Origin: Chitinophagaceae bacterium
GTDB lineage: Bacteria; Bacteroidota; Bacteroidia; Chitinophagales; Chitinophagaceae
Assembly: GCA_947454235.1 (NCBI GenBank)
Contig: CANGIY010000001.1
Span: 124,001-188,000, forward strand
Direction: 5' to 3'
Length of the DNA stretch: 64,000 bases
Positions 16,371 through 32,242 of the stretch are shown here, piece by piece. How positions within the stretch are numbered: the stretch's first letter is position 1; the number at the start of each line of letters is the position of its first letter. A program made the translations under genes and the position numbers. A model generated the notes under the pieces. The model was given only the letters and a program-made list of their open reading frames with translations. It was not told the origin of the DNA and made no database searches.

Positions 16371-17027
16371 ATGAAATTTTTGCTGAAGACTATTCCATTA
16401 ATCGCAGTAGCTATACTTATTTCATTCATTGGCAAAGCTGCTGACTCTTGTGGGAAGATAACTTTTCACCCGCGCCCTGTAAAAGAATTAATGGGTAATC
16501 CGTGTAATTTCAAGGCCATCTCAACCATGAAAGATGCGCAGTATCGCTGGCAGGTAGATAATGGAGCGGGTTTTAAAAACCTAAACGACGGCGGGGCTTA
16601 TACAGGTACTCATACGCAGGATTTCAAAGTGTTTGCAAGTACGCGAATCTTATCAGGAGAAAAATATAGGTGTATAGTAACCAATAAACTTGGTTGTGCC
16701 GATACTACAACGACAGCGTTGCTGACCATCGCGCCCGATGAAGCTCCGGTTTTGAGTGCAGAGACCATCATCATTACGCCCGAGGAAATCAAAGATGTTT
16801 CAAGAGTGATGCTTCCGGGTAACTATTTTGGCACAATGGAGCTGATTGATAATCTGGGCAGGGTAGTTGCTAAAAAGGATTTGCGCATGAGCATGACTTA
16901 CGTAGAATTTAGCACAGTATTGCCTGGTTACTATACAGCCAAGTTCACTATTAACGATGTCGCGTACTTTAAACGTGTACATCTCGTTCATACTTACCGT
17001 AGCCCCGAAGAGCTCAATAAACACTAG
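16371..17027 (+). CDS. Secreted Ig-like protein with a C-terminal sorting-like beta domain
   Basis: A 218-residue exported protein (signal peptide about 1-23). The middle (about 30-125) is an Ig/PKD-like unit with the YRWQVDNGAGF and KYRCIVTNKLGC segments seen in many Bacteroidota cell-surface proteins. The last 75 residues (IDNLGRVVAKKDL, FSTVLPGYYTAKF) resemble a T9SS type A sorting domain, although the usual PNP motif is not visible. Secretion and surface display are inferred; the ligand is unknown. Its stop overlaps the convergent helicase gene by 4 nt. Confidence 0.72.
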   Translation: MKFLLKTIPLIAVAILISFIGKAADSCGKITFHPRPVKELMGNPCNFKAISTMKDAQYRWQVDNGAGFKNLNDGGAYTGTHTQDFKVFASTRILSGEKYRCIVTNKLGCADTTTTALLTIAPDEAPVLSAETIIITPEEIKDVSRVMLPGNYFGTMELIDNLGRVVAKKDLRMSMTYVEFSTVLPGYYTAKFTINDVAYFKRVHLVHTYRSPEELNKH

Positions 17028-20000
17028 TCATCCATTTCAGTTTCGTCGCTCGGCCGAAGCAGTTCGTAGTTTTTAGCAAAGTTGCACCACTGGCATTCAG
17101 CTTCGCCGCACCCATGGTCGAAGTTCTTACGCATGATGTTGCTATATGTGTCCTTTATTTGTTGCATCACCAGTGCTTGTTCATGTTCAAAAAACGGTAT
17201 TGTGTAGTTTTTGTATCCGCCTTTATCCAGTTTTTGAACAAATTCAAATGTGCCCTGGTCTACAATCCACGGGTTTTCTTCCATGTGCTCCAGTACAATT
17301 TTGTAGAAGAACATTTGTCGCCAATAGTCGCCACCGTTCGGGTTTTTATCATTGGGCGATGATGTTTTGCTTCCATTATTCTCAGGCTTTCCGGTTTTAT
17401 AGTCGAATACCCTGCAATGAACGCCGTCTTTTTCTATCCGGTCAATTTTAGCAGTAACAGGCACCCCTTCAAGTATGTATCTGGGTACTTTGTATTCTAT
17501 TTCAACGTTTTTCTGTAGTTTGTCAATGTTCTCATCATAAAACTCGGCAAGTACGGTGAGCCCTTGTTCCATGCGCCTGTCAAGCTGGGTTTGCGTGAAA
17601 GAAGCAATGTCTTTATTGAGCGCATATTTAAACCATTCCAGCAGCGACTCTTTAGGTGGAAAGTCTCCGTTCACCTTCATTTCTTTATAAAAGCGTTCTA
17701 ATGCAGCATGTATGGCAGTGCCAAAAGCCAGCGCATCACTCTTTTGGGAGGGAACCCGTAACAGTTCAGCAAAATAAAATTCCAGCGGACAGCGAAGGTA
17801 CCTGGACAGAGATGTTGCACTCATGGTAAATTGTTGCAAGGCTCTATCAATCCATTGTTCGTTGGCGTAAGTAAAGTATTCCGGCTTAACTGGTTGCAGG
17901 GTGGTTTGTATGAAGCTACTTATTGGGTCATCGGTCACCGCCACCTTAATTGCTTCGTCTCCTTCGCATATTTCATCAACAAATTGCGACACTTCCAGGG
18001 CCTTGCCTGCATTGTCGTTGGAAGAGTAAGAAATGGTGAGGTGTTTTTTAGCCCTTGTTAGTGCTACGAAGAATAGGCGTCTTGCCTCTTCTTCCTTATA
18101 CACCTTGCGTTCGTCGTTTTCAGTGCCCACAAGATTTTCAGGAAGTTTGTACTGACGGTTATTGCCTGCTTTTTTCTCCCAAAAATTCTTGGTGCATCCT
18201 ATCAGGAATACATGTTCAAATTCATTGCCTTTCGAGCTGTGGGCTGTATAAAGTTTTACGCCCCTGTCGCTTTGTACTACCCTGTGAACAGGCAGAGAGA
18301 TGTGCTCATCGTTCATGCGCTCAACCATCTTTAGCAAAGTGCTGAGGTTTAGTTTAGCGTTGCGATCCAACGAATCTTTTACGAAATCGAAGAACGTATT
18401 GAGTACTTGCAATCGCCATATCTTGTCAGGTCTGCTTATTTCGTGTTGTACGATTCCGCCTTCATAAAGTACTTTTTCAAGCAGTAGCAATACCGGCATT
18501 GTTGTAAGTTCTGTCTCCCAGGTTTCCAGGAGTCGTCCCCATTTTAAAATTGCCTGAGCATTCTTTAGTCCGGTTTCCCGCAGCCATTGTTCATTGCTCA
18601 ATGACAGCTTCCATTTTCTCGCAGTATCGGTGTAAGGAATTGATTGCATTCTCAGTGCAACTAATCCAAGGTCAGAGGGTACGATTTTAGTCCATGGGCA
18701 ATGTAACAGCGTAAACAACAAATCTTCACCTGAAAACGGTTTTTTAGACTCAAGGTCTAAGTATTTTAGAATGCTGAGAATTTGTTCTATGACGGGCAGC
18801 TCCAGAATGTTGGCAGGGCGTTTTACATCGAAAGGAATGCCTTTTTTCTCAAAAATATCAATGATGTTGGCTACCTGTTTATGCTGTGCATACAAAATAG
18901 CGATCTCGTTCAGGGGTACGTTATTGTCTCTTAGAGCTATTATCTGGTTTACAACATCGGTTTCCTCCTGCAATACGCACGGGTACATTTTCACCACCGG
19001 GTGTATTTTCTCGGTAGCTTCTGTGAAACGCGAGTTGGCGGCGACTATATTTTTCTCAAGTTTGATGTCTTCTATCTGGTTGATGAGCCGTTGACCGTTG
19101 TTCTTGATAGATGCCATCGCTTTATCAATAATTTCTTGCGATGAGCGGTAGTTGTGAGGTAATATCACCACTTTAATTGATTCGCGGTGGCGGTCGTAAA
19201 AGTCAACAATGTTCCTGATTCTTGCACCCTGAAACTCAAAAATGCTTTGGTCGTCGTCGCCCACTACAAATATGTTGGGGTCTTCCCAATACGACGTTAG
19301 TGTTTTCAGTAAATCGTTCTGGGCACCGTTGGTATCCTGAAACTCATCGACCAATATAAACTGGAAGCGCTCCTGATATGTTTGAAGTAGCCAAGGTTGT
19401 TCTTCGAAGGCTTTCAAAACCCACAATATCATATCACTGAAGTCGTACCTGCCTAAGTCTCTCATGTGTTTTTCGTACACATCGAGCAGTTGGGCAGCGG
19501 CACGCGTCGTCTCCATTCTCTTGGTTTCCTCGTCAATTTTATCCTGCTTTGGCTGTCCTTTTTCAAACCCGTTTGTTTTCTTTTTGTAGATGTATTCGGG
19601 GTTTTCAGGCAGGCTCGCCAGGTAGGCATCAATATGTTCTGAAATTTCTTTCGGGCTGTAATTCTCCCGTTTCATCAGTTCGAACAAGCTGAGCAAACGT
19701 GGTACATCGGTATAAATTCCACCACTCAGCCTGCGCAACAAATGCCCTGAAGGTAGACTGTCAATGAGTCCATACATCAGTTCGGTGCGTTCTAGGTCGG
19801 TGATGGGTTGCAAGGTGCGCAAACTGAAATATTCGGAATGTGCCTGTATGATATTGTTGCAAAACGCGTGAAAGGTAAAGATGTTTACTTTGTGGGCAGC
19901 CGTACCTATCACCTGCACCAGCCTGCGGCGCATAGAGTTGGTAGCTTCATCAGTGTAGGTAAGGCACAGTATTTCGTGGGGCTGCACCTGTGCTTCACTC

Positions 20001-20158
20001 TTCATCAGGTTGGCAATGCGCATTGCCAGCACTTCTGTTTTACCTGTGCCAGGTCCGGCAATTACCATTACGGGGCCGTAAATGGTTTCAACAGCTTCAC
20101 GCTGATTTTCATTTAATTTGTCAAATCGTTCCTGAAATGCGGCTTCGTTAATCGTCAT
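17024..20158 (-). CDS. UvrD/PcrA-like helicase fused to a PD-(D/E)XK nuclease, AddB-like
   Basis: A 1044-residue superfamily 1 helicase-nuclease. Walker A GPGTGKT is at 35-41, Walker B LVDEFQDT near 273, and VVGDDDQSIFEFQGA follows. The helicase motif YTAHSSKGNEFEHVFL and the ALTRAKKHL motif are present. The C-terminal third carries a RecB-type nuclease with FDYKTGKPE (near 920). Cysteines in SRYLRCPLEFYF (near 790) and CGEAECQWC (near 1020) are positioned like the iron-sulfur cysteines of AddB/AdnA nucleases. A DNA-end resection or repair role is inferred. No AddA or RecC partner is adjacent; the sensor kinase gene lies 27 nt upstream in the same direction, so they may share a transcript. 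Confidence 0.88.
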   Translation of the reverse strand: MTINEAAFQERFDKLNENQREAVETIYGPVMVIAGPGTGKTEVLAMRIANLMKSEAQVQPHEILCLTYTDEATNSMRRRLVQVIGTAAHKVNIFTFHAFCNNIIQAHSEYFSLRTLQPITDLERTELMYGLIDSLPSGHLLRRLSGGIYTDVPRLLSLFELMKRENYSPKEISEHIDAYLASLPENPEYIYKKKTNGFEKGQPKQDKIDEETKRMETTRAAAQLLDVYEKHMRDLGRYDFSDMILWVLKAFEEQPWLLQTYQERFQFILVDEFQDTNGAQNDLLKTLTSYWEDPNIFVVGDDDQSIFEFQGARIRNIVDFYDRHRESIKVVILPHNYRSSQEIIDKAMASIKNNGQRLINQIEDIKLEKNIVAANSRFTEATEKIHPVVKMYPCVLQEETDVVNQIIALRDNNVPLNEIAILYAQHKQVANIIDIFEKKGIPFDVKRPANILELPVIEQILSILKYLDLESKKPFSGEDLLFTLLHCPWTKIVPSDLGLVALRMQSIPYTDTARKWKLSLSNEQWLRETGLKNAQAILKWGRLLETWETELTTMPVLLLLEKVLYEGGIVQHEISRPDKIWRLQVLNTFFDFVKDSLDRNAKLNLSTLLKMVERMNDEHISLPVHRVVQSDRGVKLYTAHSSKGNEFEHVFLIGCTKNFWEKKAGNNRQYKLPENLVGTENDERKVYKEEEARRLFFVALTRAKKHLTISYSSNDNAGKALEVSQFVDEICEGDEAIKVAVTDDPISSFIQTTLQPVKPEYFTYANEQWIDRALQQFTMSATSLSRYLRCPLEFYFAELLRVPSQKSDALAFGTAIHAALERFYKEMKVNGDFPPKESLLEWFKYALNKDIASFTQTQLDRRMEQGLTVLAEFYDENIDKLQKNVEIEYKVPRYILEGVPVTAKIDRIEKDGVHCRVFDYKTGKPENNGSKTSSPNDKNPNGGDYWRQMFFYKIVLEHMEENPWIVDQGTFEFVQKLDKGGYKNYTIPFFEHEQALVMQQIKDTYSNIMRKNFDHGCGEAECQWCNFAKNYELLRPSDETEMDD

Positions 20159-20185: not shown

Positions 20186-23170
20186 TTATTTCTGCAACTG
20201 AACTTTAAATGTGAGTGTCAGAATTGTTCCTTTGTCGGGGCGCGAGTCGATATACAGTCTTCCATGCAGGCGTTCGGCACGTTGCATCATATTATTAATA
20301 CCATTGCCGCGCTTTATAGAGGTAGTATCAAATCCCTTTCCGTTGTCGCGCAAAATGAGTTGAACAACTGTTTTCTTGGGCATGGTGACTTCAATAGAAA
20401 CCTCGCCGGCATTGGCGTACTTGAGTACATTATTGAGCGCCTCTTTGTAAATCATAATGAAATTGCGGCTCATGTCCATCGGTAGTTTTATCTTCCGATA
20501 CTTTTCTACAATTCCATGAAATACAAAGGTTGTTTGCGAGTCTTCGAAAAGTTCGTGCCCAAATTCCTGTACCCTGCAAAGTATTTCAAACAGGTTGTCA
20601 TTAGCTGGTTTCAGCGACCAAAGAATGTCACGGGTGCCTTCATACAGCGAGCCGGTGTTTTCTTCGATTTGCACTAAAAGTTTGTCTATTTCAGGGGTAG
20701 GTATGATTTTGTTTTTGAGCAATTTGGTAAGCAGGTTTATGCGGGTGATGCGATTACCTACTTCATCGTGGAAATCTTCCGCAGTTCTGATGCGTATTTT
20801 ATCTTGCTCTTCTCGGCGCAGGCGATCTACGAGTTTCTGTCGCCTTCTTTTTTGGCGGGTAAGTACATTCTGTAACAACACACCTAATGCCACAAGTCCG
20901 GCAATAATCAGCAACTTGAACCAAATAGTTTTTATGAAAGGCGTTTCAACTTCAAATTCGTAAATGAGTTCGGGGTAGGCTTCTTCCAGCCCTTGTATCT
21001 TGCACTGTACATGCAGCCTGAATTTACCTGAGGGTAGGGTTGAGTAATTGACTGTATTCGTCTGCGACCATTCCGACCAGTTAGGGTCAAGGCCTTCTAA
21101 CGTATAACGGTATAAAAGGTTTTCGGTACTCACTAAAGAAATAGCTCTGAACGAAAACGAAATGCTGCTCTTTTTGTAAGGAATTACCAAATGAAGCGGT
21201 ACCCCTAAAAGTGCATCAAGCGAGTCGAACCAGGAGCGGTCAATTGTTGACTCTCCTGCCACCTTCACCGATTGAAGTAAAAGGCGGGTAGGCGATGGCA
21301 CAATCTGTAAGCTGCTTGGGTTGTATTTCATGGCTCCATTCGTAGTGCCAAACCAAATAGTGCCATCAGGCAACATAATAGAGGCATTAGAATTGCTCTC
21401 CATGCCCTTAACACCATCTGATTTACCAAAATGAACCAACTGCGGGTTATCGGCAGTGGGGTTCATGATTTTTTGAATTCCAAAACCGGTACCCAACCAT
21501 ATATTGCCATTTTTGTCGCCAATGATGTTGTAGATGAAATCTGACTTTAAACCATTCGCTTTATTGAAAACGACCGCTTTGTGGCTTTCAAGGTCATACC
21601 TGAATACACCTTTTTCACCGGTGCCTGCCCAAATGTATTTTCCGCTGGTATAAATACAACTGATGGAATAGCTGTCCAACACACTGTGGGTCACAAATTC
21701 GGAGGTTACACCATTGGTACACAACATGATACCCTTCGATTCGGTGACTATCAAAATACTGTCGGCACCAATTGACGAAAAACCCTGTATTCGAGTAGGC
21801 TTAATAGGAATAGTTTTGAAAGAGTCATTTTCAAGTACAGTCACCCCGTCTCTGAACCCTATCCAAAGCCTGCTTTTAGCATCTTCGTACAGCGCAAATA
21901 TTGAGTTAGAATTGAAGCCTTTGTGTGGTGGTTGAAAAACCCTGAACTTGTTTTTAGAATATTCGTAAAGCCCGTAGTTATAAGTGCCAATCCACAACTT
22001 CTGGCTTCGGCTGTAGCAAAGTGATGTTATGTATGCTCTGGTTGCGCCGGGCAGGGGAAGCGGAACAGCTTTTTCGTCTTTATACACAAATAGCCCTGCA
22101 TCTACTGTTCCCAGAAATAAAGAGTCCCGTTTATTGTGCGCCAATGCCATTACCTGACTACTGGCAAGTCCACTCGATTCGTCGAGGCATGTAAATAGCG
22201 TACCTGAAAACCTGTAAATGCCAAGACCATCACTTGCCATCCAGATATTGCCTTCGCGGTCTTCGAAAATATCAGTGAAGGAATTGTCTGCTAGCCCGTT
22301 TTTCTTGTTGAAAATGGTGAATTTATTGGGTTCCATTTTCATAATTCCTGACTGAGTAGCCATCCATAGTGCACCACTGCGGTCAACAATCATTCTATTA
22401 ATGGTGAAGAAATTTAAATCCTGATTGTTGAGCTTAACTGCTTTTATTTTCTTGCCATCAATCGAGTACAATCCGGCATCGGTGCCTATATAAGTCACTG
22501 CATTTTTGTCGGTGTACATGCACCTGATACCTGGCGCGCCGGTGGGTTTATCAGAAAATGTAATTGTGTCCCATTTGTTGTTTTGCAAACGAAAAATGGT
22601 ATCTCTTTGCGCCACCCAAAGCGTTTGCTTGTCGGCAAGTATAGAAGTAATGGGGTTGTCTTTTGCCGGTGTGTTGAATTTTGTAAGCTTATTGCCTTTG
22701 AGAAGGTACAATTCGCCCCTCACCCGCCACCAAACAGAGTCGCCTACCTGTATTACCTGTGCCCGTGGGTCACGTCGTTTTTTGTTTTTTTCGTCATCGC
22801 TTTCGTTGAGGAACGGCAACAAAAAATTTTGCAGTGTTTTACCTGTTAGTTTCTGTAATCCAAATGAATTACTGATCCATATATTGCCGTTTTTATCGGC
22901 AGCTATGCCATTGGTGAGGTTTGATAGCAAGCCATTACCGGTGCTTATATTATCAAAGTGTTGCCCGTCAAACGAAGAAACGCCACCCATGGTGCCAATC
23001 CAAAGTTTACCGTCGGGGTCTTGGGCAAAGCAAGTGGCTTGAGACTGAATAAGCCCATCGTCGATGCCAAGATTATGAAAAGTGTAGCGTTGCGCCCATG
23101 ACGATACCCCCGCAAGTAGTAACAGTGCAGTGATGTAACTGATTTTGGAAAGACGCTGGTAAAATGGCAT
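20186..23170 (-). CDS. Two-component propeller sensor histidine kinase (Reg_prop, Y_Y_Y, HisKA_3-like)
   Basis: A membrane sensor kinase, 994 residues from the ATG at 23170 (preferred because MPFYQRLSK leads directly into a signal peptide ending SSWAQ). The periplasmic part contains many Reg_prop beta-propeller repeats (DGKLWIGTMGG, NGNIWLGTGFG, GTIWFGTTNG) and a Y_Y_Y domain (YRYTLEGLDPNWSEWSQT). After a transmembrane helix (about 746-768) comes a dimerisation/phosphoacceptor segment with EDFHDEVGNRIT (His near 799) and a HATPase with NNVLKYANA, DNGKGFD and GNGINNM. This resembles LytS/NarX-type kinases, unlike hybrid polysaccharide sensors, since no receiver or AraC domain is attached. No response regulator gene is adjacent. 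The ligand is unknown. Confidence 0.9.
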   Translation of the reverse strand: MPFYQRLSKISYITALLLLAGVSSWAQRYTFHNLGIDDGLIQSQATCFAQDPDGKLWIGTMGGVSSFDGQHFDNISTGNGLLSNLTNGIAADKNGNIWISNSFGLQKLTGKTLQNFLLPFLNESDDEKNKKRRDPRAQVIQVGDSVWWRVRGELYLLKGNKLTKFNTPAKDNPITSILADKQTLWVAQRDTIFRLQNNKWDTITFSDKPTGAPGIRCMYTDKNAVTYIGTDAGLYSIDGKKIKAVKLNNQDLNFFTINRMIVDRSGALWMATQSGIMKMEPNKFTIFNKKNGLADNSFTDIFEDREGNIWMASDGLGIYRFSGTLFTCLDESSGLASSQVMALAHNKRDSLFLGTVDAGLFVYKDEKAVPLPLPGATRAYITSLCYSRSQKLWIGTYNYGLYEYSKNKFRVFQPPHKGFNSNSIFALYEDAKSRLWIGFRDGVTVLENDSFKTIPIKPTRIQGFSSIGADSILIVTESKGIMLCTNGVTSEFVTHSVLDSYSISCIYTSGKYIWAGTGEKGVFRYDLESHKAVVFNKANGLKSDFIYNIIGDKNGNIWLGTGFGIQKIMNPTADNPQLVHFGKSDGVKGMESNSNASIMLPDGTIWFGTTNGAMKYNPSSLQIVPSPTRLLLQSVKVAGESTIDRSWFDSLDALLGVPLHLVIPYKKSSISFSFRAISLVSTENLLYRYTLEGLDPNWSEWSQTNTVNYSTLPSGKFRLHVQCKIQGLEEAYPELIYEFEVETPFIKTIWFKLLIIAGLVALGVLLQNVLTRQKRRRQKLVDRLRREEQDKIRIRTAEDFHDEVGNRITRINLLTKLLKNKIIPTPEIDKLLVQIEENTGSLYEGTRDILWSLKPANDNLFEILCRVQEFGHELFEDSQTTFVFHGIVEKYRKIKLPMDMSRNFIMIYKEALNNVLKYANAGEVSIEVTMPKKTVVQLILRDNGKGFDTTSIKRGNGINNMMQRAERLHGRLYIDSRPDKGTILTLTFKVQLQK

Positions 23171-23258
23171 TTGGGATGTGAAGTTAGCGCAATACAATTA
23201 AAACTGGAGGTGGGCAGAGCTTTTTTAACGACTGTACCATATTGAAATCGTGAAGTTC

Positions 23259-23289
23259 TTGAAAATGTCTTGTGACACCTATAAATTTG
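23259..23289 (+). promoter_or_regulatory. Promoter of the DUF922-like gene, possibly leaderless
   Basis: TTG at 23259-23261, a 20-nt spacer and TAAATTTG at 23282-23289. The predicted start falls at about the ATG (23296), so the message may have almost no leader. Confidence 0.65.
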
Positions 23290-23295
23290 CTTCCA

Positions 23296-24498
23296 ATGAA
23301 AAACCCTTGCTTTTTAATATTGTGTTTATTGGTGAACTATGCTTCGTTCGCTCAAGATTGGGTGGCACCCGAGGGTAAGGTGATTAACCACCGGACATTA
23401 ATTTGGACCGATTTCCATGGAAAGCCTTCCCGCGAAGCGAAGGCGAAAAATATAGGAGCTCTTACGCATGGTGCTCTTTACTTTACTGCGTCGGGAGGCT
23501 CAGTTGCTGAAGATGGAAAGATGCATTTTGATTTTAAAGTGCAATGTGCTTTTCAGAGTGCTTCCTGGGTGAGGAAAGAAGTGAAAAGTGGAGGTGGATT
23601 CTCAGACCAGATTCTCAACCACGAGCAGGGACACTACGATATTTCCCTCATTTTTGCCGATCAGTTGCAGAAAGCACTTGGAGGGAGAGGTTATTCTAAA
23701 CAACGCTATAAAGAAGAGATTGATTCGGTATATCTGCCTATTAAAGCGCAAATGGAAAGAGTTCAGGATGATTACGATAGCACCACAAACCACGGTCTTG
23801 TAAATGAAATACAGCATCTTTGGGATTGCCGCATTAGAAAATGTATGGAAAACTGCACCGATCAATATCTTGATAGTGCATTGAAAGCCGTAGCAATGGT
23901 AGCCTGGCCGGGACAATGGGTGAAAAAAATGCCCAATGAGCCTTTTTTACAATTTGCGGTACGATGCAGACCTATCTATACCCAGTCTACTGATTCTTTG
24001 AACCGTTGGATAAAGAAATTTTCGAACTGGTCGGGTGGAATGACGGCGGCAGTGTCTTTTTATGAGCACAATATCACTTTTGTTGATGCTGATAAAAACA
24101 CCAATCCGGGAAAAGAACTTATAGGATATGCATATCTGCCATTGAACCAACAACTATACCGCAGAGTTTTATTAGATACCTTTTCGTTTTTTGGTGTAGC
24201 CCCTCAAATTAAAGCAGTCTTTTTTGCCAATGCAGATAAAGACACCGCAAAAGAAATGGTTGTACTCTGTTCGGTGCCTGTAAAAAACAAAGCAATGGAG
24301 GGTACAGTGTACATCACTACTATTTTTGATGATGAGAAACCGGGCATCCCATCGTCACGGTTAAGGCGCCTTTCAGATATATCAATGCGCATGACCGGTG
24401 GCGTTGAAGGTACCATGAACGGAAAACCATCAAAAGCGAGGTATAAGACTGAAATGGAAATAAGAGAGGGTCTAAAAGCTGAGGGCTTTACAGACTAG
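23296..24498 (+). CDS. DUF922-like secreted putative zinc protease
   Basis: A 400-residue exported protein (signal peptide MKNPCFL to about residue 20, ending ASFAQ). The N-terminal half has the DUF922 features LIWTDFHGKPS, an SWVRKE segment and HEQGHYDIS, an HExxH zinc motif. Further conserved-looking His/Asp residues follow in the 150-200 region. The C-terminal 200 residues (about 205-400) are of unknown fold and may be a TonB-like or receptor-binding module. I chose ATG 23296 over the GTG at 23272, because the promoter -7 box lies across the latter. Predicted activity is a metal-dependent peptidase in the periplasm or outside the cell. The gene stands alone. Confidence 0.72.
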   Translation: MKNPCFLILCLLVNYASFAQDWVAPEGKVINHRTLIWTDFHGKPSREAKAKNIGALTHGALYFTASGGSVAEDGKMHFDFKVQCAFQSASWVRKEVKSGGGFSDQILNHEQGHYDISLIFADQLQKALGGRGYSKQRYKEEIDSVYLPIKAQMERVQDDYDSTTNHGLVNEIQHLWDCRIRKCMENCTDQYLDSALKAVAMVAWPGQWVKKMPNEPFLQFAVRCRPIYTQSTDSLNRWIKKFSNWSGGMTAAVSFYEHNITFVDADKNTNPGKELIGYAYLPLNQQLYRRVLLDTFSFFGVAPQIKAVFFANADKDTAKEMVVLCSVPVKNKAMEGTVYITTIFDDEKPGIPSSRLRRLSDISMRMTGGVEGTMNGKPSKARYKTEMEIREGLKAEGFTD

Positions 24499-24551
24499 TA
24501 CGAGAAGTGCTTTTTCAGGTTCATTACACGCTTCATAACAAGCACCCCTTT

Positions 24552-25538
24552 TTATTTAGTAACTGTCTCCGGGTGTGTACGCACATACATGTCGTCCATC
24601 AGACTGTCAACTATATTTCGGCGGTAGTGCATTGGTTCGTAATAATTGTACTTGCTTTTAGTGATATTGTTGATGCCTGAATAGTCAAATATCCTATTTT
24701 GATCGAATGTGGTTTGTAATATTTTGAAGTCCACTGGTGCCATTTTAATCTGGTCGTACATCGGGTGAATTAGGATGATGTAGTTGGTGTGGTGTTTGTC
24801 GAGAATGTGTTTTATGCTGATTAACAGAGTTTTGACTTCTTCGTCTATCAAATTTTTGTTGAACCGTTGACTGTCGGTACGTATGATCTGGTCAAAACGG
24901 GGCTGTCGCGCCGAATAGAATGAATCTCGATTGCGCATAATTAGTGTGTCGAATAAAGAATAGGGGTCACGGATGCTCAGTTCATAATCGGCTTGAGTAG
25001 TCTTTTTTAGTTTGTAGTATGAGCTTATGAATTCTGTATTGAAGACGTCCATAAAGTTCGCAATTTGGAAGTCAAGCCACGTTTCACCTGAAAGTGACGG
25101 GTGTTTTCGGTAGAGGTGGCCCTTACTGTTGCTTCCGGTCGAAAGCAGATCGTTGTCCATTGTAATAAGTACATTCTTAATATCAGTACCAGTCCGATCC
25201 AGAAATTCCAGTTTTTTGGCGACACCATAAATAGTCTCTTGTGCTACGGTGTACGTAAAGTAACTCTTAGAGGCAAATAGGTGTTCCATGTGATCGCCTC
25301 TATAAAGAGCTCCACGTGAACTACCGAAAATAAAAGTGTTGTAATGTTTTTTTGGATACTCATCTTTGAAACGCTCCAACATGCAATAGTCTTCATTCAG
25401 TTCCAGATGCTTAATTTTTGTTTCGTATACATGCGGATATTGCCGAACGACCAAGAACGGGTCGGTGTACACATAGAACGCCAGTATCAAAATTAGAGGT
25501 ACACTCGCCAGAAATAGTTTTAAAAAGAGTTTTTTCAC
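24552..25538 (-). CDS. SGNH-like protein paired with MBOAT (DltD-like)
   Basis: A 328-residue protein with one N-terminal transmembrane anchor (about 5-24) and an extracytoplasmic domain. It has the nucleophile-type motif FGSSRG (Ser73/74) and a C-terminal EPMHYR (His304) where SGNH hydrolases carry DxxH. DltD and AlgJ/AlgX proteins next to MBOAT acyltransferases have this arrangement and deliver an acyl group to an extracytoplasmic acceptor. The gene starts 2 nt after the MBOAT stop, so the pair is almost surely co-expressed. The Glu in place of Asp in the ExxH motif is a deviation. The acceptor molecule is unknown. Confidence 0.72.
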   Translation of the reverse strand: MKKLFLKLFLASVPLILILAFYVYTDPFLVVRQYPHVYETKIKHLELNEDYCMLERFKDEYPKKHYNTFIFGSSRGALYRGDHMEHLFASKSYFTYTVAQETIYGVAKKLEFLDRTGTDIKNVLITMDNDLLSTGSNSKGHLYRKHPSLSGETWLDFQIANFMDVFNTEFISSYYKLKKTTQADYELSIRDPYSLFDTLIMRNRDSFYSARQPRFDQIIRTDSQRFNKNLIDEEVKTLLISIKHILDKHHTNYIILIHPMYDQIKMAPVDFKILQTTFDQNRIFDYSGINNITKSKYNYYEPMHYRRNIVDSLMDDMYVRTHPETVTK

Positions 25539-25540
25539 GA

Positions 25541-27001
25541 CTAAAATTGAAAATAAATGAACGAATGTTTTTCATAAACGCCGAAGAAGAGAAGCAATCC
25601 GAGCGCTGAATAATAAGTAGCCCACCTAAAGGCAGCCGGCTTGGTATGAAATGTTTCCCCAATCCGGTATTTCTCGTTTAGGTACTGCAACAACTCAAGT
25701 ATTAAAATCATTACTGCGTACGGAAGAAGTACGGTCTTGTAATTAGGCAGGTTCAGGAATGCAAATTTGTGCGTATGCAAACCCTGCATGAGCTCTAATG
25801 GAATATAAGCCAGCTTCTTTACAATAAAGAAAGAATCACCCAAGTTCTTCGACCTGAAGAACACTACTGCGAAAACAACGAAGAGAAAGGTACACACCAG
25901 GCAAAGTGTATCGGCCAGTTTCCGGGGTAGTTTTGCTAAGGCGGCCAGCCTGAAGTCGCGGGTGTAGAACTCATAAGAAATAACTATACCTTGCAATACG
26001 CCCCAAACTACATAGTTCCAACTTGCACCGTGCCATAGCCCACTGAGGAAGAAAGTCAACATCAACCCAAAAACAACGGACCATTTCCTCCACTTTCTGA
26101 GCGATGCAACAACCGGGTTAAAGAGGTAGTCGAAAAACCAGGTGGACAATGAAATATGCCAACGGCGCCAAAACTCAGAAAGACTCTTGCTCGCGAAGGG
26201 ACGGTTAAAGTTTACCATCAGGTCAAACCCCATCACTTTTGCGCAGCCTATCGCAATATCAGAATAGCCGGAAAAGTCGCAATAAATTTGAAACATGAAG
26301 AAAGTCGCTCCGATAGCGAGCGCAATGCCCGAATAATTTGTTGGATTATTGAACATAGGCTCGGTGACAAGTAATAACCGATCAGCAATAACAACCTTTT
26401 TTAAGAAACCCCAAAGCATTATACGAATTCCCTTAGCCACATTTTCATACTTCAAGTCATGGACTTCATAGAATTGGTGCAATATGTTCTGTGGTCGCTC
26501 AATAGGACCGGCAACCAGTTGCGGATAAAACATTACGTACAACGCATAGATTCCAAAATTCCGCTCGGCCTTTTGATTCTCGCGGTATACCTCTATGGTA
26601 TAGCTCATTGCTTGAAACGTATGAAATGACAGACCGATGGGTAATATTATGTCGAGAAAAGGCAAATTCACGGGTGCCTTAGCAAGGTGCAGTAGCTCAT
26701 TGACGTTTTCTGTAAAAAAGTTGTAGTACTTAAAGAAGCCTAAAACACCCACATTTGCTATTACGCTCATTACCAGGAACCGCATTTTCTTTTCTTCCGG
26801 TGCATTTTCTATCATGATGCCAGCATAGTAGTCGATTACAATCGTGAAGAAGAGAATTAGGATATATACAGGGATATACACCATGTAAAACAGGCAACTC
26901 GCAACCAACAGGTGAAACCATCTGAACTTGTGAGGCAGTAAAAAGTAAATAATAGTTACAATAGGGAAGAATAGAAGAAATTGTAATGAATTGAATAGCA
27001 T
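25541..27001 (-). CDS. MBOAT family O-acyltransferase (AlgI/DltB-like)
   Basis: A multipass membrane-bound O-acyltransferase (486 residues from the MLFNSLQF methionine; the longer frame from 27037 adds 12 unlikely residues). Family motifs are visible: the SEFWRRWHISLSTWF block and the catalytic His in FFLSGLWHGASWNYVVWG (near residue 324). About ten hydrophobic segments are apparent. MBOATs of this class move an acyl group from a donor (acyl carrier or acyl-CoA) across the membrane to a polysaccharide or teichoic acid. The downstream SGNH-like protein and the upstream ligase and carrier fit a Dlt-like pathway. A -7 box (TACATTTG) is at 27065-27072 on the minus strand. Confidence 0.93.
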   Translation of the reverse strand: MLFNSLQFLLFFPIVTIIYFLLPHKFRWFHLLVASCLFYMVYIPVYILILFFTIVIDYYAGIMIENAPEEKKMRFLVMSVIANVGVLGFFKYYNFFTENVNELLHLAKAPVNLPFLDIILPIGLSFHTFQAMSYTIEVYRENQKAERNFGIYALYVMFYPQLVAGPIERPQNILHQFYEVHDLKYENVAKGIRIMLWGFLKKVVIADRLLLVTEPMFNNPTNYSGIALAIGATFFMFQIYCDFSGYSDIAIGCAKVMGFDLMVNFNRPFASKSLSEFWRRWHISLSTWFFDYLFNPVVASLRKWRKWSVVFGLMLTFFLSGLWHGASWNYVVWGVLQGIVISYEFYTRDFRLAALAKLPRKLADTLCLVCTFLFVVFAVVFFRSKNLGDSFFIVKKLAYIPLELMQGLHTHKFAFLNLPNYKTVLLPYAVMILILELLQYLNEKYRIGETFHTKPAAFRWATYYSALGLLLFFGVYEKHSFIYFQF

Positions 27002-27064
27002 TTTACCCTGTTTTTGAAATATTGGCACACCTTCCAAGAGGTAGAGCTACATCTAAGAAAGGGG

Positions 27065-27072
27065 CAAATGTA
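27065..27072 (-). promoter_or_regulatory. Putative -7 box for the MBOAT-SGNH pair
   Basis: Minus-strand TACATTTG matches TAnnTTTG about 64 nt before the preferred MBOAT start. No -33 TTG at standard spacing. Confidence 0.4.
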
Positions 27073-27383
27073 CAAAACATATCACAGCTGGGTATACCTT
27101 AAGAATGGGAAAAATGCTCCGGTTCAATACCTGCAATTCATGCCAAAGCATTTTTATAAAATTTGTGTCATCGATTTAATATAAGTGGATCAAACTTGGT
27201 AGTAGCGTTGCTTTGTTTCTTTCAGTATCATTTCTGTAAGTGAATCAGAACCAATTAAGTGCTTGTAGCACAACTTTTGCGCATGATCTATTATCCCTAC
27301 ACACAATGTGCACTTTGTTTACAGTACACATTGCCTATCTATGTTTTTCGAATTGTTTAGAATTCGCAATACATCCACATAAG

Positions 27384-27417
27384 ATCTCCTAGAATAATCA
27401 TAACTATTCGAGGAGAT
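27384..27417 (-). terminator. 13-bp inverted repeat downstream of the GNAT-ACP gene
   Basis: Arms ATCTCCTAGAATA and TATTCGAGGAGAT pair over 13 positions with one mismatch, around an 8-nt loop. It lies about 104 nt past the stop of the gene ending at 27521. Neither side has a clear U-tract, so an attenuator or protein-binding site is also possible. Confidence 0.35.
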
Positions 27418-27520
27418 TTGAAAAAATATGAAGGAGATATGTTATTCTCGCTGTGGGCTATTAAAAATCTTAATCAGAATAAATTGAGTATCAAAGTCGT
27501 AATGTAACCACCGATATTGT

Positions 27521-28411
27521 CTAGGAAATCTTTTTTTCGATGGTAGCGACCATTTCACCTACATTCTTGAATTTCATAATCTCATTCAGTTTGAACTTGA
27601 TTTTGAAATGTTCTTCAACTGAATCTATGAGTATCATGTGATTCAAAGATGTCCAACCATTTACATCTGTTGCTACGGTTGTAGGAGTCAACGACAATGT
27701 AGGTTGTTTCAGTACCTTTGCGAAAATTGAATTCAACTGCGACAGTATGCCATTTTCTGACGGATTGCCGCAAGAACGTTCCATCAACACGCGGGTGTCG
27801 GAGGAAAGTATCTTGTTAATTGCTTTGTTGGCTGCCTGTTTAGTTTTTACAATCGTGAAGCCTGCTTTTTCGTAAGATTTGGTAGCAGCTATATTATTAC
27901 CAAGTAAAAACACCTGCACTTTTTCAAACTTATCTCCGCTTTTCTGGTAGTCAGTGATTTGAGCTTCGATCAATTGTTTCGAAAGACCTTTGCCTCTGAA
28001 TTTAGGTGCAGTATACACCGACTCGATTTGAAGAGTGCCCGGTGTTCTGTCGATGCCAATCTCATTCATGAGAGAAATATTTTCGGTAGCTAATAATACT
28101 TTTTGCCTATCAAGGAAATAAATCAGCAAGTCATTTTTTATTGCACTGGCGCTGCGTCCGGTTTTTCCTTCCACCCAAGCTGCCAGTGCTGCGGCTTTCT
28201 CACCGTTCTCTTCGGCTATCATAAAACTAGAAATGCACAATTCCTGTCCTTCTACATTCTCATCCAACATATTACGAAGAGCTTTTATCAATTCGGCTTC
28301 AGTAATATTGAAAATTCCGCAATAGCTAATCATCTCCGACCCACTTTTTTCTGCCTCAATAATCGCTGTGATTAAAAAATCAATGTCGGTCGTGTTTGCT
28401 CTCCTTATCAT
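27521..28411 (-). CDS. GNAT N-acyltransferase fused to an acyl carrier protein domain
   Basis: A 296-residue two-domain protein. Residues 1 to about 212 form a GNAT-type acyltransferase with an acyl-CoA loop FRGKGLSKQL (138-147) and NNIAATKSYEKAGF (172-185). Residues about 220-296 form an acyl/peptidyl carrier domain with GWTSLNHM (252-259), where Ser255 is the expected phosphopantetheine site, followed by DSVEEHFKIKF and a helical KNVGEMVATIEKKI tail. The usual DSL motif reads TSL, within the WxSLxH pattern seen in some carrier proteins. Its start overlaps the AMP-ligase stop by 4 nt, so ligase and carrier are coupled. In standard Dlt systems the carrier is a free DltC; here it is tethered to a GNAT. 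Confidence 0.85.
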   Translation of the reverse strand: MIRRANTTDIDFLITAIIEAEKSGSEMISYCGIFNITEAELIKALRNMLDENVEGQELCISSFMIAEENGEKAAALAAWVEGKTGRSASAIKNDLLIYFLDRQKVLLATENISLMNEIGIDRTPGTLQIESVYTAPKFRGKGLSKQLIEAQITDYQKSGDKFEKVQVFLLGNNIAATKSYEKAGFTIVKTKQAANKAINKILSSDTRVLMERSCGNPSENGILSQLNSIFAKVLKQPTLSLTPTTVATDVNGWTSLNHMILIDSVEEHFKIKFKLNEIMKFKNVGEMVATIEKKIS

Positions 28412-29889
28412 TTCGTAGAATTTAAAATTTTTGTCAACTCGTTTCGGTCGGTTTTACCGTTCGTATTTAGAGGGAAGGTTTTTACAAAGTGTACTTGTGT
28501 AGGCATCATGTAGGAAGGTATTTTAGTCTCAAGTTCAGAAAGGGTTCCTGATACATCAATGTATTGTCCTTCAAATACAGCCTGTATTTCCAGTTGCCCG
28601 GCATGGTTAGGTATTGCCAATGCAACTAGATTGCTATCATTTGTTATTTGTCGCAAGTGGAACTCTATTTCGCTCAGTTCTATCCTGTACCCCTGTATTT
28701 TCACCTGGTGATCAACCCGACCTGCGTACATAAAGTTACCGTTGGATGTTCTGAAAGCGATATCACCTGTACGGTAGTAGCGTGTACCATTGTGCTCAAA
28801 GAACGCAGTTTTGTTGCGGTCAGAGTTTAGATATCCCATCGTAAGCTGGTCTCCAGCAAGGCACAACTCTCCTTTTACTTCTCCTTCCAACAAATGACCG
28901 TCGGAATCTGCTATCTGCGATTCCATGCCAGCCATTGATTTACCTATCGAAATGATACCATTATAATCTTCTATCAATCCATCCCGTGTTACAGGATATG
29001 TCATGCAAAAAATGGTAGCCTCGGTAGGTCCATAAACATTCTCGACTATGGCATTGGGCGCACATTTCATCCAGCCAATTGTTGTTTCAGTGTACAGCGC
29101 TTCTCCGCAGAAGAGTGAGTACCGCAATGCCGGAAGGTCTATTTCATGAAAATATTGCTTTAGGCTCGCAAGTATAGACGGAACCATTAGCGCGAAAGTT
29201 ACGTTGTATTCCTCTAAAATGTTATATACGTTTGTAAACTTCATGCCCTCATCAGGCAGTGTATAAACACAGGCTCCTATACACAAAGGTACTAGGTATG
29301 ACATTACAGACAGATCGAACGTTAGATCAAACATCTGCAAAAATCTATCTTCACAAGTTACTTGATACCCCAACTTGCCGAACGCAGTTATGAACGAATC
29401 AAGGTTGCCATAAGTTATAGGCACCCCTTTAGGTATTCCAGTGCTGCCAGAAGTAAACAAAATGTAAGCATCGGCTGCGCTATTATATTTGGAATTACTT
29501 AATTCAATTTTGCTGCCATCCAAATTTTCAGTCACGATTAGGCGAACAACCGCATTCTGGCGATCATATTTGTTACACAATATGGTTTGAAGCTGTGACT
29601 GTTCTACAATTTGGCGCGTGCGTTCTGGCGGGTGATTGGGATGTATTGGAATATATGTTCTGCCGGTCATTAGGCAAGCGAGCAATCCTGCGTATGTCTC
29701 CAAACAGTTTGTCGCTAAAATACCAATTTTCCTCTCACCAGGTGCTTTTTCATTCAGACTGGCTGCGATAGATTTGGTTTTAGCAAGTAGCTCTTTGTAG
29801 GTGTAAAAAATACCCTCTATGCAAAATGCATTTCTTTCTCCATGTACTTCAAAAACAGCGTATAACTGATCTACAAAATTCATACTCAT
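28408..29889 (-). CDS. Stand-alone AMP-forming adenylation enzyme, DltA-like
   Basis: A 493-residue adenylating ligase with all core motifs: ILFTSGSTGIPKG (143-155), NVYGPTEAT (284-292), YRTGDIA (372-378), GRVDHQVKIQGYR (390-402) and C-terminal NGKTDR with the catalytic Lys. Length and motif wording fit D-alanine:carrier ligases (DltA) and freestanding amino-acid adenylation domains. FCGE around residue 260 places a Cys where DltA structures have one near the substrate. It should activate an amino or hydroxy acid and load it on the carrier domain encoded next. The substrate is not proved. It is the first gene of the Dlt-like cluster. The start may be Met1 or Met3. Confidence 0.88.
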   Translation of the reverse strand: MSMNFVDQLYAVFEVHGERNAFCIEGIFYTYKELLAKTKSIAASLNEKAPGERKIGILATNCLETYAGLLACLMTGRTYIPIHPNHPPERTRQIVEQSQLQTILCNKYDRQNAVVRLIVTENLDGSKIELSNSKYNSAADAYILFTSGSTGIPKGVPITYGNLDSFITAFGKLGYQVTCEDRFLQMFDLTFDLSVMSYLVPLCIGACVYTLPDEGMKFTNVYNILEEYNVTFALMVPSILASLKQYFHEIDLPALRYSLFCGEALYTETTIGWMKCAPNAIVENVYGPTEATIFCMTYPVTRDGLIEDYNGIISIGKSMAGMESQIADSDGHLLEGEVKGELCLAGDQLTMGYLNSDRNKTAFFEHNGTRYYRTGDIAFRTSNGNFMYAGRVDHQVKIQGYRIELSEIEFHLRQITNDSNLVALAIPNHAGQLEIQAVFEGQYIDVSGTLSELETKIPSYMMPTQVHFVKTFPLNTNGKTDRNELTKILNSTK

Positions 29890-30349
29890 ATTCGGTTCCT
29901 GTACACGTTTTTTGTTTCCGGGACGCCCATAAGCGTTATATAAAGATGCAAAGATGTGAATTTTTTTTGAATACTGCTCATTCTAAAAATGCTACAACAG
30001 GGTTATTCTGATGTGATGGTAAGCACAATTAATTTTCGTTTGAATAGATGAACTAAGGTGCAAAAAATAGTTTTAGTTGATGTTGAAAAATTGAATAGAT
30101 TATTTGATCCATCGAGAATCTTGAATTTAACAGGAAAGAATAATTTCAATGCCAACAAGCGCAACTTCTTTGAAATAAACCACTATCGAAGCTTCATTGC
30201 GGATAGGATAGTAGATACACTGTTCAATAGGCACCTTCCTAATATCAATGGTACTTATTGATATGTTGGTGTTGTTATCGCCTTACGAATAGTCTTTACC
30301 GAGAAAATGAAGTGATTCGCCTATTAGCTGTCCTAATTGTTATCATTGA
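29890..30349. other. Intergenic region before yidC
   Basis: About 460 AT-rich nt between divergent genes. A GTG-started frame at 30058-30261 (67 codons) has no recognisable motif and is probably chance. The promoter of the minus-strand ligase must lie near 29950; only a 7/8 -7 match (29949-29956) is visible. Confidence 0.5.
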
Positions 30350-30381
30350 TTGGCTTTTAATGGGTTAATTGCCTACCTTTG
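30350..30381 (+). promoter_or_regulatory. Promoter of yidC
   Basis: TTG at 30350-30352, a 21-nt spacer and TACCTTTG at 30374-30381, 20 nt before the yidC ATG. Confidence 0.7.
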
Positions 30382-30400
30382 GCATCGTTTTTAAATATAC

Positions 30401-32242
30401 ATGGAACGTAATCAGTTTGCTGGATTTGTACTTATCGCCCTTTTACTCGTAGGGTATTTAACGTACAACCAGTATGAGCAGAAGAAATTAGAAGATTTCA
30501 AAAAGGCCGAAGCGGCAAAGAATCCTAAGAAAGCACCACAGGGTAAAGACTCAACAGCAGTAGCTGCCGCAGCGGCTGCTACTCAGGCTGCTATTCCCGA
30601 CTCAGTGAAGAAGTTGATGCCACCGGCATTCAACGGTACTTCTCAGGTTGTAACTTTGGAGAACAGCAAAGTATCTGTACAATTCAATACGAAGGGCGCA
30701 TTTCCTGTTGCAGCTTCGTTGAAAGAATACACTACTTACGGCAAAAAAGCACTCTACCTTTTCAACGGCAACAATAACCACCTTACGGCTATTCTACCAA
30801 CAGATAATGGTAGGTCAACCGAGACATTGTTTTTTACTCCTGAGGTAAAGAATGATGGCAAAGGGGGGCAATCTATTGATTTTGCTGCTGATATGGGTGG
30901 TGGTAAGAAAGTAGAGCTTATCTATTCGTTGCCTGCCAACGACTACATGATGCAGTGCAACGTGGTGCTTACCGGCATGACGGCGCAGGAGCTTAAGCTG
31001 AACTGGCTTACCAATGCAGTGCATACTGAAAAAGACATCAACAATGAGCGCCTGAACACTCAGGTTTATTATCGCTTCAAAGATGGCGATAATGATTACT
31101 TTACTGTTCGTACCGGTGAAGATAAAAGCCATGAAAGCTCTTCTGCTACACACTGGGTGGGCTTTAGGAAACAGTATTTCAGCACTGTGTTGATTTCAGA
31201 AGACGGTTTTACGCACATGAGTACCAAGGCTTCAATGAAGGCAGAGGATACAACCAATGTCGCATTCAATCAGGCTGAATTAATGTTGCCATTAAAAGCC
31301 ACAGGCAACGGAACAGCATCAGGAGCAATGAAATGGTATATGGGCCCTAATGACTACCGTACACTTAAAGCCTATAACATGGGCTTAGACGAGATGGTGC
31401 CATTGGGTACAGGTATATTTGCTTTTGTTAAGTATATCAACCGTGGAATTTTAATTCCTATTTTCTACATGCTTTCCGGCTTTATCAGCAACTATGCAAT
31501 CATCATTATCTTAATGACGATTTTCATCAGGCTGATACTTTCGTTCTTTACTTACAAAAGCTACCTTTCTTCAGCGAAAATGAGGGTTTTAAAACCTGAG
31601 TTAGATGAGTTAAGGGCTAAGTTTGGTGAAGACCAACAGAAGATGAGCATGGAGCAAATGAAAATGTATCGTACTGCAGGTGTTAACCCACTAGGCGGTT
31701 GCCTTCCAATGTTATTCCAGATCCCGATTTTGTTGTCGTTGTATAATATGTTCCCATCTTTTATTGAGTTTCGGCAACGTGGTTTTCTTTGGGCTGAAGA
31801 TCTTTCAACCTACGATAGTATTGCGTCGTGGACTACAAACATTCCATTCCTTAGTTCGGTTTATGGTAACCATATCAGTTTGTTTACTCTGTTAATGACT
31901 GCATCGAGCTTGTTCCTTGCAATCTATAACCGCAACATGACTCCGCAAGACCCTAACAACCCTATGATGAAATACATGCCATATGTGTTCCCTGTTATTT
32001 TGATGGGTTGGTTCAATAAAATGGCAGCAGCCCTTACGTTTTATTACACATTCTCTAACTTATTGAGTATTGCGCAACAATTCATCATTCAGAAGTACTT
32101 CATTGATGAAAAAGCAATTCATGCTCAAATTCAGGAGAACAGAACGAAAGGACCTACAACATCTAAATGGCAGCAGCGTCTTGAAGAAATGCAAAAACTT
32201 CAGGCAGAAAAAGCAAAGCAACCAAAAGGTGGTAAGAAATAA
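30401..32242 (+). CDS. yidC: Membrane protein insertase YidC
   Basis: A 613-residue YidC/Oxa1/Alb3 insertase of the Gram-negative type. It has an N-terminal transmembrane helix (about 5-22), an Ala/Lys-rich linker, a large periplasmic beta domain (about 75-340) and the conserved insertase core. The core includes YINRGILIPIFYML, KSYLSSAKMRVLKPEL, NPLGGCLPMLFQIPILLSLY and the final helices ending in a Lys-rich tail. It inserts inner-membrane proteins alone or with SecYEG. It has its own promoter (30350-30381) and a strong terminator (32262-32287), so it appears monocistronic here. Confidence 0.97.
   Translation: MERNQFAGFVLIALLLVGYLTYNQYEQKKLEDFKKAEAAKNPKKAPQGKDSTAVAAAAAATQAAIPDSVKKLMPPAFNGTSQVVTLENSKVSVQFNTKGAFPVAASLKEYTTYGKKALYLFNGNNNHLTAILPTDNGRSTETLFFTPEVKNDGKGGQSIDFAADMGGGKKVELIYSLPANDYMMQCNVVLTGMTAQELKLNWLTNAVHTEKDINNERLNTQVYYRFKDGDNDYFTVRTGEDKSHESSSATHWVGFRKQYFSTVLISEDGFTHMSTKASMKAEDTTNVAFNQAELMLPLKATGNGTASGAMKWYMGPNDYRTLKAYNMGLDEMVPLGTGIFAFVKYINRGILIPIFYMLSGFISNYAIIIILMTIFIRLILSFFTYKSYLSSAKMRVLKPELDELRAKFGEDQQKMSMEQMKMYRTAGVNPLGGCLPMLFQIPILLSLYNMFPSFIEFRQRGFLWAEDLSTYDSIASWTTNIPFLSSVYGNHISLFTLLMTASSLFLAIYNRNMTPQDPNNPMMKYMPYVFPVILMGWFNKMAAALTFYYTFSNLLSIAQQFIIQKYFIDEKAIHAQIQENRTKGPTTSKWQQRLEEMQKLQAEKAKQPKGGKK

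Follow-up and report, generated by a model that had tools for sequence, protein, structure and literature searches.

The window analysed here, 64,000 nucleotides (nt) of DNA from a Chitinophagaceae bacterium, carries on its minus strand a cluster of four genes for an adenylation enzyme (A enzyme), a protein that joins a GNAT acetyltransferase domain to an acyl carrier protein (ACP) domain, an MBOAT acyltransferase and an SGNH/DltD-like partner (Table 1). These genes, which the original prediction had described as a Dlt-like acyl-transfer cluster with an AMP-forming ligase, were confirmed by their open reading frames (ORFs), by Pfam matches and by the predicted SGNH fold of the last product. 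The motifs named in that prediction (Ser255 of the carrier, His324 in LWHGA of the MBOAT, Ser74 in GSSR and His304 in ExxH of the partner) were all present. The A gene and the GNAT-ACP gene overlap by 4 nt, and the SGNH partner adjoins the MBOAT as the next gene. For the MBOAT, the ATG at 27001 was the best start; the ORF list begins at an upstream TTG, 27037. From the sequences of the four products we propose, with a probability of roughly 45%, that the cluster encodes a carrier-fed transmembrane acyl-ester system, which would esterify an exported envelope polymer with an N-acetyl-aminoacyl group.

Table 1. Features of the acyl-transfer cluster in coordinates of the window.
Feature	Position	Strand	Basis or remark
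A enzyme, DltA-like/nonribosomal peptide synthetase-type adenylation enzyme, 493 amino acids (aa)	28408..29889	minus	Pfam AMP-binding, 210 bits
Ten-residue code DLMLLCVIFK of the A enzyme: Asp192 (presumed alpha-amino contact), Cys261, Phe294, Lys479	within 28408..29889	minus	
GNAT-ACP fusion protein, 296 aa	27521..28411	minus	ORF and Pfam
GNAT domain, residues 1-213	27773..28411	minus	predicted local distance difference test (pLDDT) ~98; coenzyme A (CoA) loop FRGKGL
Acyl carrier domain, residues 220-296	27524..27754	minus	Ser255 in GWTSLNHM, codon 27647-27649
Gap between carrier and MBOAT, 519 nt	27002..27520	minus	without a plausible gene
MBOAT acyltransferase, 486 aa, from ATG	25541..27001	minus	Pfam MBOAT, 83.5 bits
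MBOAT His324 in LWHGA	26030-26032	minus	putative catalytic residue
MBOAT C-terminal acyl-shuttle motif FIYFQF, Tyr483	25553-25555	minus	
SGNH/DltD-like partner, 328 aa, N-terminal hydrophobic helix	24552..25538	minus	predicted fold
SGNH partner Ser74 (GSSR); His304 (ExxH)	25317-25319; 24627-24629	minus	

The gene set was surveyed across Bacteroidota. The GTDB genome collection was scanned with an alignment of five A enzymes, and the best 80 of at least 590 matching stretches, nearly all from Bacteroidota, were annotated with profiles built from the first loci and by a six-frame search. A carrier lies on the strand of the A enzyme in 67 of these 80 loci, an MBOAT on that strand in 30, and a GNAT is found near the A enzyme in 30. 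GNAT and MBOAT occur together in 16. Loci with the full set of parts mostly keep the order A-GNAT-ACP-MBOAT-SGNH (e.g. L044, L072, L077, L087, L177 and L192). In L072, a close relative, the five genes are packed with overlaps or spacers of no more than 39 nt. In G680, A-GNAT-ACP closes one contig, and a second contig starts partway through an almost identical ACP, with MBOAT-SGNH behind it. Two loci depart from the usual order by repetition, with A-GNAT-ACP-GNAT-ACP-MBOAT in L099:7944-11967 and A-FMT-ACP-GNAT-ACP-MBOAT-SGNH (FMT, formyltransferase) in L092:7968-13982; the repeated GNAT-ACP or paired carriers hint at two acylation steps. Searches at successive taxonomic levels, each count including the window's own genome, gave matches in 3 of 395 genomes of the phylum with a seven-row GNAT alignment, in 19 of 395 of the class, in 26 of 298 of the order with the single fused protein, and in 4 of 11 of the genus (GNAT in 2). 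Among the 26, 20 matched through the carrier part without a full GNAT match, and the neighbourhoods of 10 of these 20 were annotated. Six loci (L059, L061, L075, L076, L079 and L085), several of them from Ignavibacteria, combine one A enzyme or two with as many as four GNAT genes, have no MBOAT call nearby, and perhaps represent a small-molecule pathway.

Pfam finds AMP-binding as the sole domain of the A enzyme. After the general adenylation-domain model, DltA gives the best whole-protein NCBIfam names, with scores below both cut-offs (NF003417, 293.7 bits, cut-off 476; TIGR01734, 278.3 bits, cut-off 559.85). Among PDB sequences, the enzyme as a whole best matches the linear gramicidin synthetase LgrA, which is a multimodular peptide synthetase, whereas the A enzyme here stands alone. 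Ten pocket residues, at positions chosen after the Stachelhaus scheme, were read from an alignment anchored on the window's A enzyme. Asp192 is presumably the mark of an alpha-amino-acid substrate. The printed pocket alignments cover nine code positions and stop short of the Lys. Of these nine, the D-Ala ligase 7r27 has five in common with the window's enzyme (Asp, Leu, Met, Leu, Cys), and so does 4oxi (Asp, Leu, Leu, Cys, Ile), which gave the top PDB match for the pocket region. The latter is listed as 'Enterobactin synthetase component F-related protein', and we take it to be the glycine-activating AlmE with glycyl-AMP. With module 2 of LgrA, whose substrate we assume to be glycine, five of ten positions are common (Asp, Leu, Cys, Ile, Lys) and three more are similar. 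By its pocket residues, the A enzyme most likely activates a small alpha-amino acid, glycine or alanine, the two being inseparable on this basis. AlmEFG of Vibrio cholerae adds glycine to lipid A and resembles the cluster in using a glycine-type adenylating enzyme and a carrier for modification of a Gram-negative envelope; it differs in that AlmG is not known to be an MBOAT-SGNH pair and no GNAT takes part.

The pocket also tracks the presence of the GNAT. Counting one A enzyme per locus, the exact DLMLLCVIFK pocket is accompanied by a GNAT in 12 of 13 loci, and the 13th, L078, has a formyltransferase. Among loci of the same pocket type with Phe at position nine (DLxL-CV-F), 18 of 20 have a GNAT, compared with 2 of 12 for the Tyr variant. 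The DFVTSGYVY group has none (0/13), the DVQ group 7 of 16 and the remaining loci 3 of 19; because related sequences were not down-weighted, all these tallies are counts and not independent events.

The sole NCBIfam match of the MBOAT is the DltB model TIGR04091, at 167.5 bits and thus below its cut-off of 375. The motif FxYxxF stands at the extreme C-terminus of 75 of 82 MBOATs, and a looser form of it in all 82. According to the available part of a 2025 paper, the Dlt pathway passes the acyl group from a carrier donor to the Tyr of the DltX microprotein, in the motif FxYxxF, whereas PatA-like MBOATs use an acyl-CoA donor, no carrier, and a Tyr in the same motif at their own C-terminus (PMC12148441). 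An acyl-Tyr step is reported there for PatA and for DltB/DltX, and a Ser relay is described as well. The same part of the source states that MBOAT-SGNH pathways other than Dlt lack a carrier (PMC12148441), a rule that the A-GNAT-ACP-MBOAT-SGNH set does not fit. A search for a DltX-like ORF, limited to the region 23000-31500, found none with FxYxxF in the last 15 residues among 121 ORFs of 20-120 aa on both strands.

Carrier-adjacent MBOATs cluster on a tree of 82 MBOATs, with 15 label changes against a mean of 27.6 after shuffling and none of 500 shuffles as low; the tree was built by a quick method, 8 of the 82 rows lay too near an edge to be labelled, and the gene caller missed some ACPs. 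The window's MBOAT falls into a group of 32, of which 23 have a carrier and 9 do not. Carriers accompany 12 members of a group of 13 and none of a group of 17, where 7 are too near the edge to label. Within the window's genome, one of seven MBOATs, that of the cluster, has a carrier found within ~5 kb. Close to it on the tree stand MBOATs from FkbH-bearing clusters without an A enzyme (L048, L050, L063 to L066 and L159). In these neighbours FkbH takes the place of the A enzyme, as though one loader had been swapped for another with the MBOAT still fed by a carrier. FkbH, ACP, MBOAT and SGNH lie close together in these loci and in L046; FkbH was called with TIGR01686 in L046, L048 and L050 and with a custom FkbH profile in L063, L064, L065, L066 and L159. 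The set of L048 also holds a methyltransferase and a glyoxalase-like gene.

The SGNH partner has no Pfam match above cut-off, DUF1574 alone appearing below its own. Its AlphaFold2 model (pLDDT 79.9) has an SGNH fold, and DltD (6pfx) is its first Foldseek match (E 1.7e-5, TM 0.38). A VIA comparison of the model returned SGNH esterases, DltD and PatB at Z scores of ~10 to 12. DltD gave the longest alignments (237 residues, Z 10.7), and many GDSL/SGNH esterases outscored it (up to Z 12.0); the comparison therefore supports a predicted SGNH fold, not DltD identity. In an alignment of 28 partners, counting the window's, G72, S74 and H304 are each conserved in at least 90%.

For the description of the cluster as Dlt-like, the logic is supported, but membership of the Dlt pathway is not. 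The Dlt pathway (DltA, DltC, DltB, DltD and DltX) carries out D-alanylation of teichoic acids; like it, the cluster unites a ligase, a carrier, an MBOAT and a DltD-like SGNH protein, which adjoin one another in relatives, and has a small-amino-acid pocket with a Cys as in 7r27. The differences are that the shuttle motif is fused to the MBOAT here and resides on a separate DltX there, that the free carrier DltC is replaced by one fused to a GNAT, and that a GNAT or formyltransferase is added in the Bacteroidota set. The host, unlike those of Dlt, is Gram-negative and is not known to have teichoic acids. Since the cluster falls short of the curated cut-offs and the search around it found no DltX, we do not count it as a Dlt member. 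A true Dlt system would esterify D-alanine on an envelope polymer with no N-capping, the GNAT being a side passenger. This reading draws on the DltA and DltB names among the NCBIfam matches, on Cys261 and the four further pocket residues shared with DltA 7r27, on DltD as the first fold match, and on four loci (L091, L095, L109 and L146) with A, ACP, MBOAT and an SGNH call but no GNAT. It is nevertheless improbable, as the scores are roughly half those required by the curated DltA and DltB models, the 121 small ORFs include nothing like DltX, and the GNAT, being present in 18 of 20 DLxL-CV-F loci, is too regular for a passenger. Judged by its parts, the cluster should follow Dlt as far as the MBOAT and, from that point on, PatA/PatB of peptidoglycan O-acetylation. 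With PatA/PatB it shares the C-terminal FxYxxF, the MBOAT His and an SGNH partner with Ser and His as the next gene. PatA, as described in the available part of the source, uses acetyl-CoA and no carrier (PMC12148441), whereas a ligase and a carrier precede the MBOAT here.

What the GNAT contributes is the least certain part of the proposed route. Its fold was confirmed by Pfam matches above cut-off and by a model that matches GNATs with Z up to 17.4 over 178 residues, the top structural matches being named acetyltransferases (1u6m, 4m85 and phosphinothricin acetyltransferases). L078 has a formyltransferase between A and ACP, in the slot of the GNAT, and L041 and L092 have both enzymes. Formyltransferases act on amines, and their presence in this slot in some loci makes it look like one for N-capping. 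In L041 the formyltransferase is similar to ArnA, to methionyl-tRNA formyltransferase and, weakly, to the formylation domain of LgrA; it could act on a sugar instead.

Alternatively, the GNAT could use the aminoacyl-ACP as its donor and pass the residue to an amine or hydroxyl group of a soluble acceptor (whether an amino sugar, a small molecule or, for a dipeptide, another aminoacyl-ACP), with the MBOAT and SGNH protein then taking the carrier-bound product or another share of it. We consider this somewhat unlikely, although it is the strongest of the alternatives and has a precedent: SbzL/SbzG/SbzI and SbzB/SbzG/SbzC of the altemicidin and SB-203208 pathway each comprise an adenylating enzyme, a carrier and a GNAT that act on a carrier-bound acid, with the carrier as donor in vitro (available part of PMC6331615). 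That pathway makes a soluble antibiotic, its carrier and GNAT are separate genes, and no MBOAT or SGNH protein is named in the same part of the source (PMC6331615). SbzI (8zt3) and the SbzI-SbzG complex (8zt4) rank 33 and 47, within the first 50 of the Foldseek list for our GNAT model; since the matches at E <= 0.001 run to 495 chains, SbzI does not stand out, and the matches at the top are acetyltransferases by name. The CoA-pyrophosphate loop GxG/A is degenerate in 25 of 46 aligned rows, as a donor role would allow, but kept in 21, among them the window's GNAT with its FRGKGL. Two to four GNAT genes accompany A enzymes without an MBOAT call in L075, L076, L079 and L085, and in L099 each of two ACPs has a GNAT next to it; the formyltransferase that occupies the GNAT slot in L078 suits N-capping better.

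The MBOAT is separated from the carrier by 519 nt. Among 17 ORFs of at least 20 aa that overlap 26950-27560, both flanking genes included, no plausible gene was seen in 27002-27520, and the cluster may therefore consist of two transcription units. The equivalent gap is ~40 nt in L072 and ~70 nt in L157. A mobile element was considered and rejected, as a 476-base piece of the gap is single-copy in the genome. A stable hairpin lies at 27384-27417, and the surrounding 121-nt region folds with a z-score of -3.77. Scans of the gap for Sigma-70-type promoters (18 against 16.8 in shuffles) and for terminators (5 against 4.8) gave no excess. Upstream of the MBOAT, the TAnnTTTG half of the Bacteroidota-type promoter pattern occurs at 27072-27065; the full pattern was not found there. 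The gap and this half promoter could mean that the MBOAT and its partner are an ordinary O-acetyltransferase fed by acetyl-CoA and only chance neighbours of an A enzyme and GNAT-ACP that make a small molecule. Around the genome's other six MBOATs the search turned up no carrier, and A-GNAT-ACP occurs without an adjoining MBOAT in L069 and L070, both as such a chance arrangement would have it. The tight packing of the five genes in L072, the contig ends of G680, which join A-GNAT-ACP with MBOAT-SGNH through the nearly identical ACP, and the grouping of the window's MBOAT with carrier-linked MBOATs make this explanation very unlikely.

Under the esterification route that we favour, the A enzyme would adenylate Gly or Ala and load it onto the phosphopantetheine of the ACP, as its motifs and pocket residues suggest. 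The GNAT would then N-acetylate the carrier-bound amino acid with acetyl-CoA. The MBOAT, by its motif and His, may move the N-acetyl-aminoacyl group across the inner membrane onto its own Tyr483 in FIYFQF, as PatA does with acetyl. The SGNH/DltD-like partner would finally accept the group on Ser74 and esterify a hydroxyl of an exported envelope polymer. Our confidence is moderate for the route and low for the exact acyl group. An N-capped residue would add no positive charge, unlike the D-Ala from Dlt.

Several observations weigh against this route. In 14 of the 30 GNAT loci no MBOAT lies within reach on the same strand, and L069 and L070 have A-GNAT-ACP with no adjoining MBOAT. Among 18 further GNAT genomes at class level, an A-enzyme call stands beside the GNAT in 10 and none is near in 7; in L181, also at class level, the A enzyme is present and the GNAT ORF was missed by the gene caller. 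At order level the A enzyme occurs at 4 of 6 GNAT loci, with none near at 2. No carrier lies within 300 nt of 29 of 67 GNAT ORFs. Because many GNAT loci lack a nearby A enzyme or carrier, the GNAT family evidently has other uses. The 519-nt gap may uncouple the A/GNAT-ACP half from the MBOAT/SGNH half. The degenerate CoA loops, the limits of the MBOAT tree and the esterases that outscore DltD, all given above, count on the same side.

The fusion of GNAT and carrier is well founded in this genome. The protein matches GNAT families with up to 35 bits and PF00550 PP-binding with 25.6 bits (cut-off 20.8) in Pfam, and residues 223-295 match the solved acyl carrier protein 2lml (E 1.3e-14). We take 2lml to be GmACP3, a lead that yielded nothing useful when followed. 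A carrier domain in residues 220-296 is thus supported by sequence, while the predicted model did not resolve its fold: residues 237-270 fall below pLDDT 50, and the alignment used held no carrier rows. The GNAT rows were used alone because a joint alignment placed carrier rows on the GNAT, and the model is therefore uninformative for the carrier part.

Fusion is not the rule in relatives. Among the other GNAT ORFs of the annotated loci, 66 of 67 (65 different sequences) have no carrier domain, and 38 of the 67 have a carrier on their own strand no more than 300 nt away. In the nearest relatives (L068, L069, L070, L071 and L072) GNAT and carrier are separate adjoining genes. The A enzyme of L068, which appears to be the same record as G680 from the window's genus, is 58% identical to the window's. 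Counted by eye, L068 and L069 have 7 nt more at the junction than the window, where both the stop and the start codon are lost, so a one-base error is not the explanation. A frameshift artefact was also rejected because a GNAT stop with an ACP start behind it appears in neither of the two alternative frames. With carriers so often beside GNATs and a junction free of stop and start, the fusion does not consist of unrelated neighbours joined by a frameshift. Of the prediction that the carrier is not free but fused, the fact stands for this genome; the fusion is a local novelty and not the essence of the system. On a GNAT tree the window's domain groups with the unfused L068 to L071, which makes the fusion look recent; the fused arrangement is a derived state.

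A second GNAT-ACP ORF, L179:1920-2819 (G711), has a run of nine A at its junction. A run one shorter would give separate genes, and this fusion is therefore doubtful and is not counted as independent; fused and separate forms could switch there by slippage or sequencing error. In an Ignavibacteriales metagenome-assembled genome (L147:1541-3742), A enzyme and GNAT form a single ORF of 733 aa. Although the fused state is not the rule, these fusions suggest that A, GNAT and ACP act as one functional unit. In the window, translation that begins internally, at the ATG of 'MER', could yield a free carrier. The window's genome also encodes a lone carrier (L045:9841-10083), 45% identical to the fused one, with no MBOAT or ligase call near it. 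Loading modules of curacin-type polyketide synthases likewise have a GNAT directly followed by a carrier domain; there the pair lies within synthase megaproteins, and here it sits between an A enzyme and an MBOAT.

More broadly, and still tentatively, these gene sets may define a third MBOAT-SGNH machine in Bacteroidota, in which a carrier-bound acid, loaded by an A enzyme or FkbH and tailored by a GNAT, formyltransferase or methyltransferase, would pass over a built-in acyl-Tyr shuttle to give N-acetyl- or N-formyl-aminoacyl envelope esters. A literature search found no report of such an arrangement or of such surface esters, a weak negative as subscription journals were mostly outside its reach. 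The acylation of the envelope governs bacterial encounters with host defences, with phages and with other bacteria. If the proposal is true, the donor range would open to tailored amino acids and hydroxy acids, and envelope esters easily lost in alkaline work-up are predicted. A carrier-fed MBOAT with a built-in shuttle would then join both routes described in the available part of PMC12148441. The natural GNAT/ACP fusion offers a compact two-protein system (A enzyme plus GNAT-ACP) for an in vitro test of the N-acetylation step.

Elsewhere in the window, 17024-20158 encodes a single protein of 1044 aa with UvrD-type helicase and PDDEXK nuclease domains, an AddAB/RecB-like fusion.

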